Of a DNA stretch of 64,000 nt, positions 44,438 through 53,974 are shown piece after piece. The stretch covers positions 310,001 through 374,000 of the forward strand of contig NZ_FOYT01000002.1 in NCBI RefSeq assembly GCF_900112175.1, read 5' to 3'. This DNA is from Halogeometricum rufum (GTDB lineage: Archaea; Halobacteriota; Halobacteria; Halobacteriales; Haloferacaceae). The notes under the pieces were generated by a model. That model saw nothing but the letters and a program-made list of their open reading frames with translations. It did not search any database and had not been told where the DNA came from. How positions within the stretch are numbered: position 1 is the stretch's first letter; every line of letters starts with the position of its first letter. A program made the position numbers and the translations under genes.

Positions 44438-45856
44438 TCAGACCAGCGACCGCTCGCCGCGGAGGCCGGCGAACGCGGCGACGGCGACGGCGACGGCGGC
44501 GACGACGGTGGGCCAGAAGCCGATTTCGCCGTCGACGCCGAACGTCGTCAGGAGCGTGAACACGAGGAAGACGGGGAGGACGACGCCGACGCCGAACAGC
44601 CACGGCGTCGCGACGGCCCGGCCGACGGGGCCCGCGCCCTTCCGGAACTCGGTGAGGGCGTCGCGGCCCATCACCCAGCCGACGAAGACGAGACAGACGG
44701 TCAGACCGACGGTGAGCAGGATGTCAACGAGGGTGCCGGCGACGAAGCCGAACACGCTCGGTTCGAGCGCGCAGACGGAGCCGGTGACGGCGACGAGTCC
44801 GCCGACGACGGCGGCGGCGCGGCGGCGCGGCAGTCCGTGTTCGTCGACGAGGAACGAGACGGAGATTTCGAGGATGCTGATGGCCGAGGAGAGCGCCGCG
44901 AGGGCGACGACGGCGAAGAAGGCGGTGGCGACGAACGTGCCGGCCGGTAGTTGGGAGAACGCGCCCGCGAGGCCGACGAACAGCGCACCCGCGCCGGTGC
45001 CCGTCTCGCCGGGTTCGATGCCGAGCGTGAACAGCAGGGGGAAGACGACGAGTCCGGCGAGGACGCCGACGACGGTGTTCAGCACGGCGACGCTCGCGCC
45101 GTCGAACGGCAGCGAGCGGTCCTCGTCGAGGTAGGAGGCGTACGTTATCATCGTCCCGACGCCGAGCGAGAGGGTGAACAGGGCCTGTCCGGCGGCCGGG
45201 CCGAGGAGGCCGAAGAAGTTCTCTCGCAGGACGCTGGTGTCGAAGCGGAGGTAGAACGCGTACGCCTCCGACGCGCCCGCCTGCGTGGACGCCCAGACGC
45301 CGAGGCCGACGAGCAGGGCGAAGATGGCGGGCATCATCCACTTCGTGGCGAGTTCGATGCCGCCGCGGATGCCCGCGACGATGATGAGGGCGGTGAGTGC
45401 GAGGAAGACGAGGTGGAAGGCGACGGCGTCGAGGCCGGCGGAGGCCGCGCCGAACGACGCGCCGGGGTTCGCGAAGTACGGGACGGTGCCGGTGACGAGT
45501 CCGAGGACGCTCTCGCCGAAGTAGCGGAGAATCCACCCGCCGACGACGCTGTAGAAGGAGATGAGGACGAGCGAACTGAAGACGAGGAAGCCGCCCGCGA
45601 GCCCCCAGCGGTCGGACCCCGACAGGGACCGGAGCGCGCCCACCGGGTTTCGTTTCGCCCGGCGGCCGACGACGAACATCCCCAGCAGGCCGGGGACGCC
45701 GACGAGGAGGACGATGCCCAGATAGACGGCCAAGAACGCGCTACCGCCGTTCTCGGCGGTTATCCACGGGAACCGCCAGATGTTACCGAGCCCCACCGCG
45801 CTCCCGACGGCGGCGAGGATGAATCCCATTCGAGTCGCCCACGTCTCTCGTGTCAT
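44438..45856 (-). CDS. Sodium-dependent transporter, neurotransmitter:sodium symporter family (copy 1)
   Basis: A 472-residue protein of the NSS/SNF family with about twelve helices. The first helix GFILAAVGSAVGLGNIWRFP carries the sodium and substrate site signature. It probably imports an amino acid with sodium. TATA-like GCTTTTAGCG lies about 30 bases upstream of ATG 45856 on the minus strand. Similar to the copy encoded immediately upstream. Confidence 0.93.
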   Translation of the reverse strand: MTRETWATRMGFILAAVGSAVGLGNIWRFPWITAENGGSAFLAVYLGIVLLVGVPGLLGMFVVGRRAKRNPVGALRSLSGSDRWGLAGGFLVFSSLVLISFYSVVGGWILRYFGESVLGLVTGTVPYFANPGASFGAASAGLDAVAFHLVFLALTALIIVAGIRGGIELATKWMMPAIFALLVGLGVWASTQAGASEAYAFYLRFDTSVLRENFFGLLGPAAGQALFTLSLGVGTMITYASYLDEDRSLPFDGASVAVLNTVVGVLAGLVVFPLLFTLGIEPGETGTGAGALFVGLAGAFSQLPAGTFVATAFFAVVALAALSSAISILEISVSFLVDEHGLPRRRAAAVVGGLVAVTGSVCALEPSVFGFVAGTLVDILLTVGLTVCLVFVGWVMGRDALTEFRKGAGPVGRAVATPWLFGVGVVLPVFLVFTLLTTFGVDGEIGFWPTVVAAVAVAVAAFAGLRGERSLV

Positions 45857-45957
45857 TGACTCGCAGTCCCAGTCTCGCGCTAAAAGCACTTTCGGACCGA
45901 GGATACATCAAACGGCAAATATGACGGCGATAGCTGCATCTAACCGTCAATATTCGC

Positions 45958-45989
45958 CGACGAACGAGAGCGAAATATCACGTTCGTCG
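45958..45989. terminator. Inverted repeat between the two NSS transporter genes
   Basis: CGACGAACG (45958-45966) and CGTTCGTCG (45981-45989) form a perfect 9-bp stem with a 14-nt loop. On the minus strand it lies after the stop of the upstream transporter and before the promoter of the downstream one, so it may end the first message or act as an operator. Confidence 0.4.
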
Positions 45990-46092
45990 AAGAATCGTAG
46001 GCAGCGGATTCCACGGTTCGGACCGGCCGACGGCCGACAGTCGCCGCCGCGAGGCGAGGACCGACTACCGCCCCGCCCGTCCGTCCCGCGCT

Positions 46093-47475
46093 TCAGAGCG
46101 GCGGGACGATGGCGGGGTCGGCCCCGCCGAACAGCGTCAGCAGGCCGAGGGCGAGGGTGAGGACGACGCCGAGGAAGACGACGGTGCGGACCAACCAGAG
46201 CCACAGCGACCCGACGCCGTCACCGAAGCCGGTGCCGCGGAGCAGTTCCTCGACGCCCGGCCGGCCGAACACCCAGCCGACGAAGACGAGGATGCCCAGC
46301 ACCGACGCGGGGAGCAGGAGTTGGTACGCGAGCGTGTCGAACCACGTCAGCCACGCGGTATCCCACGCCGAGGGGAGGCCGAGGGTGAAGATGGCCGAAC
46401 CGAGGCCGACGGCCACCTGCGGCCGGGAGACGGGGTAGTTGTCGATGGCGTAGGAGACGACGACTTCCAGCAGGCTGATGGCCGACGACAGCGCCGCCAC
46501 GAGGACGACGAGGAAGAAGACGACGCCGACGACGCGGCCGAACGGGATGTCGGCGAACGCGCTGGCGACGCTGATGAACAGCGCGCCCGCGCCGCCGCTT
46601 CCGGGTTCGACGCCCTGCGCGAACAGCAGGGGGATGACGACCAGTCCGGCGAGGATGCCGATGGCCGTGTTGAACACGACGATGGTGGCGCTGTCGCCGA
46701 ACAGGCTCTCGTCGCCGTCGATGTAGGAGGCGTACGTTATCATCGCGCCCATCCCGAGCGACAGCGAGAAGAACGCCTGACTGACCGCGAAGGGGATGAT
46801 GGCGGCGAGGGGGCCGCCGAACGTCAGCCACGGGAACGACGGCGTGGTGTCGACGGTGAGTCGGAGTTGGCTCAGGTCGGGCGAGAGGAAGTACGCGTAG
46901 CCCGGCGTCGCCCCGGGGAGCGTGAACGCCCAGACGGCGAGGGCGACGAGGATTGCGAGGATGCTCGGCACCATCAGCTTCGTCGCCTTCTCGATGCCGT
47001 CCTGGATGCCGAACGCGACGATGCCGACGACGAGAGCCATGAAGACGGCGTGGAGCGCTATCGCCTCGGGGCCGGCCGAGATGGCGCCGAAGTAGCCCTG
47101 CGCGTCACCGAAGTACGCGCCGGTGAGGCTCCCGCCGACGTAGCGCAGCACCCAGCCGCCGACGACGCTGTAGTACGACAGAATCCAGAACCCGGTCAGG
47201 AGTCCGAGGACGCCGACGAACCGCCAGTTCCGGTAGCCGATGCGTTCGAACGCGCCGATTGTGTTGAGGTTGCTCTTGCGGCCGACGACGAACTCCGCGA
47301 GCATCGCCGGGAGACCGATTCCGAACACCGCCACGAGGTAGACGACGAGGAACGTCGCTCCGCCGAACTCGGCCGTCTTGAACGGGAACTGCCAGATGTT
47401 CCCGAGTCCGACGGCGCTCCCGACGGCGGCGAGGATGAACCCCGCCCGCGTCGCCCACGTCTCTCGTTCGCTCAT
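46093..47475 (-). CDS. Sodium-dependent transporter, neurotransmitter:sodium symporter family (copy 2)
   Basis: A 460-residue NSS-family transporter, paralogous to copy 1. The first helix GFILAAVGSAVGLGNIWQFP and the TYASYIDGDES segment are conserved. Tryptophan/leucine-type substrates are common in this family. An AT-rich region (47500-47575) upstream holds likely promoters. Confidence 0.93.
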   Translation of the reverse strand: MSERETWATRAGFILAAVGSAVGLGNIWQFPFKTAEFGGATFLVVYLVAVFGIGLPAMLAEFVVGRKSNLNTIGAFERIGYRNWRFVGVLGLLTGFWILSYYSVVGGWVLRYVGGSLTGAYFGDAQGYFGAISAGPEAIALHAVFMALVVGIVAFGIQDGIEKATKLMVPSILAILVALAVWAFTLPGATPGYAYFLSPDLSQLRLTVDTTPSFPWLTFGGPLAAIIPFAVSQAFFSLSLGMGAMITYASYIDGDESLFGDSATIVVFNTAIGILAGLVVIPLLFAQGVEPGSGGAGALFISVASAFADIPFGRVVGVVFFLVVLVAALSSAISLLEVVVSYAIDNYPVSRPQVAVGLGSAIFTLGLPSAWDTAWLTWFDTLAYQLLLPASVLGILVFVGWVFGRPGVEELLRGTGFGDGVGSLWLWLVRTVVFLGVVLTLALGLLTLFGGADPAIVPPL

Positions 47476-51770: not shown

Positions 51771-51792
51771 AGGTAGCTTTGCCAAGCTACTT
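51771..51792 (+). repeat. Hairpin in the leader of the valine-tetrad gene
   Basis: GTAGCTT (51773-51779) and AAGCTAC (51784-51790) make a perfect 7-bp stem with loop TGCC; a G-U and an A-U pair extend it to nine. It is the first of two hairpins in the leader. Confidence 0.5.
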
Positions 51793-51807
51793 GCGTGAGC
51801 GGAGCGT

Positions 51808-51827
51808 AACACCTGTATGTGTTTTTT
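51808..51827 (+). terminator. Second hairpin followed by a T-run
   Basis: AACAC (51808-51812) and GTGTT (51819-51823) pair with a CTGTAT loop, then four more T residues follow. It ends 60 bases before the GTG of the repeat protein. It may be the terminator of the CPBP gene or a conditional one for the repeat gene. Confidence 0.4.
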
Positions 51828-51887
51828 CACACCTATCGAGTTCCGGTTCGTTCTCTCCGGACAGGAAGCCGTCCGCCCGGGTGAGCC

Positions 51888-52799
51888 GTGAACCCGAGTC
51901 GCGTCGACTCCATCGTCGACCTGACCTACGGGCTGTTGATCGCGATTTCGGTCGGACTCATCGTCGTCGCCGGAAACGTCGTCGGATTGGCGTTCGGGTT
52001 CGGGGTGCTGGTCTCCTACGTCCTCCACGTCGTCTGGAAGATGGCTCGTTTCGACCCGAACTGGATGACGACGGCGGTCAAGGAGACGGTGGAGGAGACT
52101 GTCAACGAGACGGTGGAGGAGACTGTCAACGAGACGGTGGAGGAGACTGTCAACGAGACGGTGGAGAAGACAGTCGGCGAAACCGTCGAGAAGACAGTCG
52201 GCGAAACCGTCGAGAAGACCGTCGACGAAAAAGTGGGCGAGACGGTGGAGAAGACGGTCGGTGAAACGGTCGAAGAGACGGTCGAAGAGACGGTCGGCGA
52301 GACAGTCGAAGAGAAAGTGGGCGAAACCGTGGAGAAGACTGTCGGCGAGACAGTCGAAGAGAAAGTGGGCGAAACCGTGGAGAAGACTGTCGAGGAGACT
52401 GTCAACGAGACGGTCGGCGAGACGGTGGAGAAGACGGTCGACGAGACGGTCGAAGAGAAGGTCGGTGAGACGGTCGAGAAGACTGTCGGCGAGACGGTGG
52501 AGAAGACGGTCGAGAAGACTGTCGGCGAGACGGTGGAGAAGACGGTCGAAGAGAAGGTCGGTGAGACGGTCGAGAAGACTGTCGACGAAACAGTCGAAAA
52601 GACCGTCGACGAGACGGTGGAGAAGACGGTCGAAGCGAAGGTCGGCGAGAAGGTAGAGGAGACTCTGGAAGAACAGGCGGCGGCCGAGAACGCTGACGGA
52701 GAGGCGGACGAGGCCGCCGACTCCGACGAGGACAACGAGGCCGCCGACTCCGACGAGGACAACGAGGCCGCCGACTCCGACGAGGCCGAGACGTCGTGA
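51888..52799 (+). CDS. Membrane protein with a long valine-tetrad repeat and acidic tail (function unknown)
   Basis: A 303-residue protein starting at GTG 51888. Two hydrophobic helices (about 10-28 and 31-50) anchor it. From 64 to 260 every fourth residue is valine (49 times; Leu at 260), with no phase break; the other positions are mostly Glu, Lys, Thr, Asn, Asp and Gly, so the repeat is of the type ETVEKTVG. The tail (about 265-303) is acidic with copies of EAADSDEDN. Four-residue spacing differs from heptad coiled coils: as an alpha helix the valines would make a slowly turning right-handed stripe. The codons vary between units while the residues do not. The stop overlaps the PiT gene by four bases, so it probably works with the transporter. 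No homologue recognised. Confidence 0.8.
   Translation: MNPSRVDSIVDLTYGLLIAISVGLIVVAGNVVGLAFGFGVLVSYVLHVVWKMARFDPNWMTTAVKETVEETVNETVEETVNETVEETVNETVEKTVGETVEKTVGETVEKTVDEKVGETVEKTVGETVEETVEETVGETVEEKVGETVEKTVGETVEEKVGETVEKTVEETVNETVGETVEKTVDETVEEKVGETVEKTVGETVEKTVEKTVGETVEKTVEEKVGETVEKTVDETVEKTVDETVEKTVEAKVGEKVEETLEEQAAAENADGEADEAADSDEDNEAADSDEDNEAADSDEAETS
52060..52670 (+). repeat. Imperfect 12/24-bp tandem repeats encoding the valine tetrads
   Basis: The DNA alternates GAG-ACG-GTG-type units with synonymous changes at Glu, Thr and Val codons (for example GTC and GTG). Long units such as GTCGGCGAGACGGTGGAGAA recur several times, so the block is prone to slippage and gene conversion. Confidence 0.8.
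52710..52784 (+). repeat. 27-bp direct repeats encoding the acidic tail
   Basis: Two identical 27-bp units (52710-52736, 52737-52763) and a 21-base partial third (52764-52784) encode EAADSDEDN. Identity at all codon positions indicates recent duplication. Confidence 0.85.
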
Positions 52800-53974
52800 T
52801 AAGCGTACTCCTCGTCGCTGGCGTGCTCGTGGCGATGTTCGTCGCCTACAACATCGGTGGGTCGACCACGGGGCCGGCGTTCGGTCCGGCGGTCGGAGCC
52901 GACGCCATCTCCAAGCCCGTCGCCGCGGCACTGATGGGCGTGTTCTTCTTCCTCGGCGCCTGGACGCTCGGTCGGAACGTCGTGACGAAACTCGGAAGCG
53001 AACTGGTCGTCGACACCGGTATCTTCACGCTCGAATCCTCTATCGCGGTGCTCTTCTTCATCGGCGTCGCACTCTTGGTCGGGAACGTCTACGGCGTGCC
53101 GGCCTCGACGTCGATGACCGCCGTGGGTGCCATCGCCGGTCTCGGACTGGCCGGTGGCGTGTTGGACCTCGCCGTGATGGGGGAGATAGTCGTCTGGTGG
53201 GTCGTCTCGCCCATCGTCGGGTTCTGGGTCTCGCTGATCATCGGCCGATACTTCTACGCACGGCTGAACGGGTTGGTCGCGATGGACCGCAGTACGGGAC
53301 CGCTGTTCGACGTCGACCGGTCCGGCCTCGTCCCCGTCCCGCGCGTTCACCGGACGACCAACCGCCGGGAACTCGCCGGGACGTTCACCGTCGTCGCCAT
53401 CGGCTGTCTGATGGCGTTCTCCTCGGGCACCTCGAACATCGCCAACGCCGTCGCACCGCTGGTCGGCAGCGGCGAGTTGGCGATGAACCCTGCCATCGTC
53501 TTCGGCGGCGTCGCCGTCACCGTCGGGGCGTTCACCATCGCCCGACGGACGCTGGAGACGATGGGCAGCGACATCACGGAGCTACCGCTGACCGCGGCCA
53601 TCGTCGTCGCGTCGGTCTCCTCGACGCTGGTCGTCTTCCTCTCGGCGCTCGGCATCCCCGCGAGCTTCGTCATCATCGCGACGATGTCCATCGTCGGACT
53701 GGGCTGGGGGCGAGCGACTCGACCGATGACCGCTCCCGAGGTGGTCACCGGCGACGGCGGGTCGCCGGTCACGGTCGACGCGCTAGCGGCCGACGAGGAG
53801 GGCGAGACGCTTCCGCCCATCGGCGCGGAGGACGCCGAGGACATCCCCAGCCCGGGGGCGCTGTTCAACCCGGTGACGACCGCTCGGGTCGTCATGATGC
53901 AGAACGTCGTGCCGGCCATCGCGACGGCCGGTGCCTACCTCACGTTCCGGTTCGTCCCGATATTCGGGTTCTGA
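52796..53974 (+). CDS. PiT-type inorganic phosphate transporter
   Basis: A 392-residue permease with about ten to eleven helices in two repeats. The second repeat keeps SSGTSNIANAVAPLVG (about 208-222). In the first repeat the usual GANDxANA is AYNIGGSTTGPAFGPAVGA (about 17-35), without the Asn-Asp pair, as in some haloarchaeal PiT proteins. It starts at GTG 52796, four bases inside the tetrad-repeat gene. A partner of the PhoU/DUF47 type, common beside PiT genes, is not present; the repeat protein occupies that place. Confidence 0.88.
   Translation: MISVLLVAGVLVAMFVAYNIGGSTTGPAFGPAVGADAISKPVAAALMGVFFFLGAWTLGRNVVTKLGSELVVDTGIFTLESSIAVLFFIGVALLVGNVYGVPASTSMTAVGAIAGLGLAGGVLDLAVMGEIVVWWVVSPIVGFWVSLIIGRYFYARLNGLVAMDRSTGPLFDVDRSGLVPVPRVHRTTNRRELAGTFTVVAIGCLMAFSSGTSNIANAVAPLVGSGELAMNPAIVFGGVAVTVGAFTIARRTLETMGSDITELPLTAAIVVASVSSTLVVFLSALGIPASFVIIATMSIVGLGWGRATRPMTAPEVVTGDGGSPVTVDALAADEEGETLPPIGAEDAEDIPSPGALFNPVTTARVVMMQNVVPAIATAGAYLTFRFVPIFGF

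Follow-up and report, generated by a model that had tools for sequence, protein, structure and literature searches.

A tetrad-repeat membrane protein as a probable dedicated partner of a CysP-like PHO4-family permease clade in haloarchaea

The gene directly upstream of a PHO4-family permease gene in Halogeometricum rufum probably encodes a dedicated membrane partner, acting as a subunit or a regulator, of one CysP-like clade of these permeases in haloarchaea. We favor this reading because the upstream protein, which carries a long tetrad repeat, adjoins members of one permease clade and appears and disappears with that clade from genome to genome. Both genes lie in the window, the 64,000-nucleotide stretch analyzed here (contig NZ_FOYT01000002.1, positions 310,001 to 374,000), and their features are collected in Table 1. 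The earlier note had described the repeat protein as overlapping the GTG of a PiT gene by four bases; both open reading frames are as described there, with the GTGA common to the two.

Table 1. Features of the partner and permease genes, in window coordinates
Feature	Position	Strand	Details
Partner gene	51888..52799	+	GTG start, 303 aa; two-helix membrane module, tetrad repeat, acidic tail
PHO4-family permease gene, CysP-like	52796..53974	+	GTG start, 392 aa
GTGA, partner stop over permease start	52796..52799	+	Partner TGA at 52797-52799
First predicted membrane helix, aa 3-28	51894..51971	+	AF2 helix, low overall confidence; hydrophobic sequence
Second predicted membrane helix, aa 30-54	51975..52049	+	AF2; G33, G37 and G39 are invariant alignment columns
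WKMARFDPNWMT, near-invariant segment ending the membrane module, aa 50-61	52035..52070	+	Module alignment
Tetrad repeat, 50 hydrophobic residues spaced exactly 4, about aa 64-260	52077..52667	+	
Acidic tail without K or R	52671..52796	+	
First permease signature, GGSTTGPA replacing GANDVANA, aa 21-28	52856..52879	+	
Second permease signature, GTSNIANA replacing GANDVANA, aa 211-218	53426..53449	+	
TTTGCCAAGCTACTTG (TTTGCCAA..TACTTG), ~100 bases 5' of the partner gene	51778..51793	+	Upstream alignment
TGTGTTTTTTCACA, imperfectly conserved inverted repeat	51818..51831	.	Upstream alignment (25 regions)

The repeat protein and its upstream region

The N-terminal membrane module is the conserved part of the partner. 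Alignment of the first 66 residues of 33 sequences revealed 18 invariant columns out of 66, including most of a WKMARFDPxWMT segment. The AF2 model of the partner has a whole-model pLDDT of 59, rising to about 70-88 across the two-helix part. Between residues 64 and 262 all 50 V/I/L residues are exactly four apart (49 of 49 spacings) in the pattern V-[EGND]-[EK]-[TK], and the acidic tail that follows contains 21 D/E and zero K/R. Strict tetrad periodicity is foreign to canonical coiled coils. The alternating 3/4 hydrophobic spacing of a heptad coiled coil is absent from the window partner, and as judged from its spacing the repeat does not fit such a structure; two short homologues (L060 and L065) do have both 3 and 4 spacings. 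AF2 draws the repeat as a helix, at low confidence in two models (pLDDT 59 and 66). A strict tetrad repeat is an unusual protein sequence and merits a structure.

Total partner length differs among relatives, for example from 155 to 347 aa within the close orthologous loci (L036-L059). A separate subfamily (14 sequences aligned; L060-L069, L073, L074, L098, L113, and L114) ends in a conserved RxDRRPRxDE motif, which the window's clade lacks; the region before this motif mixes spacings of 3 and 4, and tetrads are few in the shortest subfamily members. Across codons 1-66 the differences between the partner and its relatives are mostly synonymous (15 synonymous versus 3 nonsynonymous in the comparison with L036). 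Because of this bias, and because the gene overlaps the permease start in all 24 close loci, the partner is not a chance or non-coding repeat.

Database searches gave no convincing Pfam or NCBIfam model for the partner, and the membrane module alone returned nothing below an E-value of 0.05. CdrL_M (27.0 bits, cut-off 27) and Nexin_C (22.5 bits, cut-off 22.3) were rejected, as no single stretch passes and fewer than 30 residues of the repeat are covered. GerPC, DUF445, GvpQ, and the other Pfam and NCBIfam matches to the repeat protein fall under their cut-offs, and DUF7269 matches one homologue weakly (20.5 versus 29.1 bits). PF01865 is absent from the partner's Pfam matches, a PDB sequence search returned no match at E-values up to 0.1, and we found no paper on the family in the titles and abstracts of the open literature searched. 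In a sample of the phylum the module occurs in 41 of 294 genomes, all 41 within the window's own order.

Upstream of the gene, the TTTGCCAAGCTACTTG element is kept in nearly all of 25 aligned regions at a position of about -100 and is probably the core promoter of the partner gene. The imperfectly conserved inverted repeat TGTGTTTTTTCACA is a weak candidate for an operator. Inspection by eye of unlinked and divergent loci revealed no evident operator common to partner and permease beyond likely core promoters. Elsewhere in the window, two adjacent minus-strand open reading frames at 45001-47475 have similar starts (ETWATRxGFILAAVGSAVGLGNIW), which we take to resemble the sodium:neurotransmitter symporter family.

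The permease and its likely ligand

The permease scores 137.6 bits against the PF01384 (PHO4) model, whose cut-off is 33.7, which places it in the PiT/PHO4 family; the genome carries five PHO4 genes. The strict PiT phosphate signature, GANDVANA with an aspartate in both halves of the protein, is absent. The corresponding motifs read GGSTTGPA and GTSNIANA, with threonine in place of aspartate in the first and asparagine in the second. Both aspartates are replaced throughout the permease clade, and among 15 members T24 is nearly invariant and N214 invariant. According to the available text of PMC5840216, the GANDVANA aspartates are essential for phosphate transport, and glycine and asparagine occupy these positions in CysP.

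Among NCBIfam models the permease fits CysP best (NF053884, 157.7 bits), with a score under the equivalog cut-off of 400, and we therefore call the protein CysP-like rather than CysP. The other four PHO4 genes of the genome score 171.1, 164.1, 62.1, and 44.5 bits against the same model, all below the cut-off. With both aspartates replaced and CysP as the closest, sub-threshold, NCBIfam model, the earlier designation of the gene as a PiT phosphate transporter does not hold up. From its motifs the permease is unlikely to carry phosphate and probably carries a different anion. Sulfate uptake for assimilation was considered and is weakened by gene content: ATP sulfurylase (PF01747) was found in only 6 of the 242 genomes of the class and CysD (TIGR02039) exceeded its cut-off in none, which makes this an unlikely use. 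These results speak against calling the members of this large haloarchaeal permease clade phosphate transporters, and raise the testable question of what a CysP-like permease carries in organisms that mostly have no ATP sulfurylase.

Like CysP of Bacillus subtilis, the window permease has both motif aspartates replaced, but with threonine in the first motif where the available text of PMC5840216 gives glycine for CysP. TmPiT (PDB 6l85) belongs to the same family by sequence (E-value 4.5e-13 over both halves), but has GANDVAN in both halves, where the window permease has it in neither.

Linkage and co-occurrence of partner and permease

Among 24 close orthologous loci (L036-L059), the partner and permease genes overlap by 1-8 bases in every one, and by 4 in the window. 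A wider linkage count started from 125 partner places, one per genome, of which seven had no listed permease place; in the resulting 118 haloarchaeal genomes, which all carry both genes by construction, the partner adjoins the permease in 87, a count that omits second copies and most genomes without a listed permease place. The two genes lie on the same strand with the partner upstream in 57 genomes (21 genera), are divergent in 30 (17 genera), and are unlinked in 31 (12 genera). The presence of two linked arrangements across many genera indicates that the neighborhood has been kept or re-made. The partner is also the commonest conserved neighbor of the permease (40 of 80 loci), and its unlinked copies have varied neighbors. 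UspA-like genes occur near 15 of 115 loci and are not a general feature; at one locus (L157, 6044-7086) an unlinked partner gene and a UspA-like gene share four bases. At L014 and L063 the stretch upstream of the permease, where the partner is expected, reads N; L063 does have a partner gene, ~4 kb downstream from where the permease starts.

The association holds where the genes are apart. In 13 of 60 relatives the partner gene always lies apart from the clade gene (G005, G012, G016, G017, G019, G025, G027, G032, G042, G044, G047, G056, and G057, compared by hand; the G047 contig is short), and the permease tree places a clade member in all 13. The G012 partner has a 47% paralogue nearby instead of the clade gene. 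By comparison, the tree shows the clade in only 3 of the 25 partner-less genomes among these relatives. The hand count over all 60 gives 34 genomes with both genes, 3 with the permease only, 1 with the partner only (a weak match), and 22 with neither, where eight genomes without a permease in the tree were scored as lacking the clade.

Across the 242 genomes of the class, the partner is present in 167; 157 genomes have both genes, 10 the permease only, 10 the partner only, and 65 neither. The permease clade was delimited here by a best E-value of at most about 1e-172, a threshold picked after seeing the data; thresholds of 1e-175 and 1e-180 give 156/10/11/65 and 153/10/14/65, respectively. In seven of the 10 partner-only genomes the permease gene is split over frames or pieces, and adding these yields 164/10/3/65 (Fisher p 4e-44), a table that leans toward our claim because split genes were re-examined only among partner-only genomes. 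Ten genera vary in both the partner and the permease clade, and when partner status was shuffled within genera the observed count was reached in 0 of 20000 permutations.

The partner occurs without the permease clade in G065, G113, and G250, and in G058 as a weak match. A relaxed search for the partner (E-value up to 10) in 12 permease-only genomes, namely the 10 defined by threshold together with G010 and G048, clade members according to the tree, gave nothing convincing (best 17.7 bits). In this tree of 82 rows G048 falls inside the clade though under the threshold, and G054, G040, and G053 are near relatives outside it. Three genera (g46, g33, and g58) were judged from their scores to be of the near-relative kind, and would join the permease-only group if they were included.

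Duplicated loci provide a further comparison. L061, L062, L064, L067, L068, L069, and L073 each contain two or three CysP-like permease paralogues. At L068 and L069 there are two clade permeases, each with its own partner, one pair on the same strand and the other divergent, and the paralogue of 45-46% identity between the two pairs has no partner. At L061, L062, L064, and L067 a single partner accompanies two clade copies. The partner and permease copies sort into the same two types, with four loci of each type: partner identity is 88-92% within type 1, 64-83% within type 2, and 61-68% between types, and permease identity is 85-92%, 83-89%, and 63-68%, respectively. A small mirror-tree test was weak, with Pearson coefficients of 0.49 for 8 linked and 0.25 for 8 unlinked pairs.

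Possible roles of the partner and related systems

A dedicated partner could act as follows. The pair of short membrane helices would pack onto the permease, with binding through the glycine-rich second helix (G33, G37, and G39), and the WKMARFDPxWMT segment would lie on the inner side of the membrane. From there the long acidic repeat, as a helix, would extend into the cytoplasm, a placement that we infer from the positively charged K51 and R54 after the second helix. There it may stabilize, oligomerize, or regulate the permease, perhaps responding to the ionic environment, and in the window's clade the stop-to-start overlap would yield matched amounts of the two proteins. The sequences directly show conservation, the pairing and overlap of the genes, their co-occurrence and paired duplication, and the loss of both phosphate aspartates; binding, topology, regulation, and matched amounts are inferences. 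"Regulator or scaffold", as the earlier note had suggested, stays the best reading because the repeat protein is conserved and accompanies the clade near-obligatorily. A more specific version, which we put forward only tentatively, is that these proteins are haloarchaea-specific subunits of a CysP-like permease for an anion that is neither phosphate nor assimilatory sulfate, and that their cytoplasmic part, an acidic rod with as many as 50 strict tetrads, might act as a tunable sensor for ionic strength or for the anion being carried.

An assembly or stability factor, a membrane chaperone outside the working transporter, is an unlikely alternative for which some of the data speak: the small two-helix module is extremely conserved, the partner is translated first, and the length of the repeat varies freely. 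Such a factor would have no evident need of a long acidic repeat, however, and the sequence data fit a subunit or regulator equally.

It is also rather improbable that the two proteins work in a common pathway or condition without contact and are co-inherited through shared usefulness in a niche. The 31 unlinked genomes, the weak mirror-tree result, and the existence of permease-only and partner-only genomes fit such a relationship. Linkage in two orientations across many genera, the overlap of stop and start in all 24 close relatives, and the paired duplication in L068 and L069 favor a closer tie.

We consider it very doubtful that the repeat protein stands in for the DUF47 regulator of a phosphate transporter, the form in which the earlier note had cast its role. 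In favor of that proposal are the PF01384 match of the permease and the partner genes known for PiT permeases in bacteria, and it was right that a PhoU/DUF47 partner is missing, as there is no PF01865 (DUF47/PhoU_div) gene anywhere in the genome. The permease, however, has both phosphate aspartates replaced, and PF01865 exceeds its cut-off in just 26 of 145 haloarchaeal genomes. A tblastn search with four permeases, covering about 4 kb each side of 20 DUF47 loci (L212-L231) where the contig allowed, identified no PHO4-like gene within about 4 kb. Since PF01865 is rare and no PHO4-like gene lies near the DUF47 genes, there is no sign of a DUF47 pairing that has been replaced. The earlier note had named relatives with a DUF47 gene before the permease gene and the repeat gene elsewhere as the arrangement that would speak against it; the repeat gene does lie elsewhere in the unlinked genomes, and no PHO4-DUF47 pair was seen.

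Operon hitchhiking, with the neighborhood an accident of genome history and the repeat a product of low-complexity drift, would suit the fast change in repeat number and the diverse neighbors of unlinked copies, but is scarcely credible given a conserved module with synonymous-biased differences and an association that holds within genera and in two linked arrangements.

A dedicated partner, the reading we prefer, has bacterial counterparts. According to the available text of PMC13170248, PitA has PitR as its partner, and in genomes without PitR a small membrane protein, SCO1846, adjoins pitA; pap lies upstream of pitH1 and is co-transcribed with it, and such genes track the permease across genomes (PMC13170248, PMC7866108, as far as their available text goes). 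Accessory regulators of PiT-family permeases are now recognized in bacteria, PitR and the uncharacterized SCO1846 among them. The haloarchaeal repeat protein shares with PitR, Pap, and DUF47 proteins a gene beside that of a PiT-family permease and a distribution that tracks the permease. We take PitR and Pap to be members of PF01865. Unlike them, the repeat protein has two predicted membrane helices and no PF01865 match, and unlike PitA-type phosphate permeases its neighbor has neither phosphate aspartate. SCO1846, compared by description only, resembles it as a small membrane protein adjoining a PiT-family permease, but the available text of PMC13170248 treats that neighbor as a phosphate importer and describes no repeat tail.

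A partner for a PiT-family permease is hence a known kind of protein, and the haloarchaeal one differs in lineage, in its protein family, and in the clade and likely ligand of its permease. Two properties expected of an accessory partner, genomic linkage to a single permease clade and co-occurrence with it, are found for the repeat protein. They make a strong archaeal comparative case, in which a family without a Pfam or NCBIfam model tracks a permease clade whether the two genes are linked, divergent, or unlinked.
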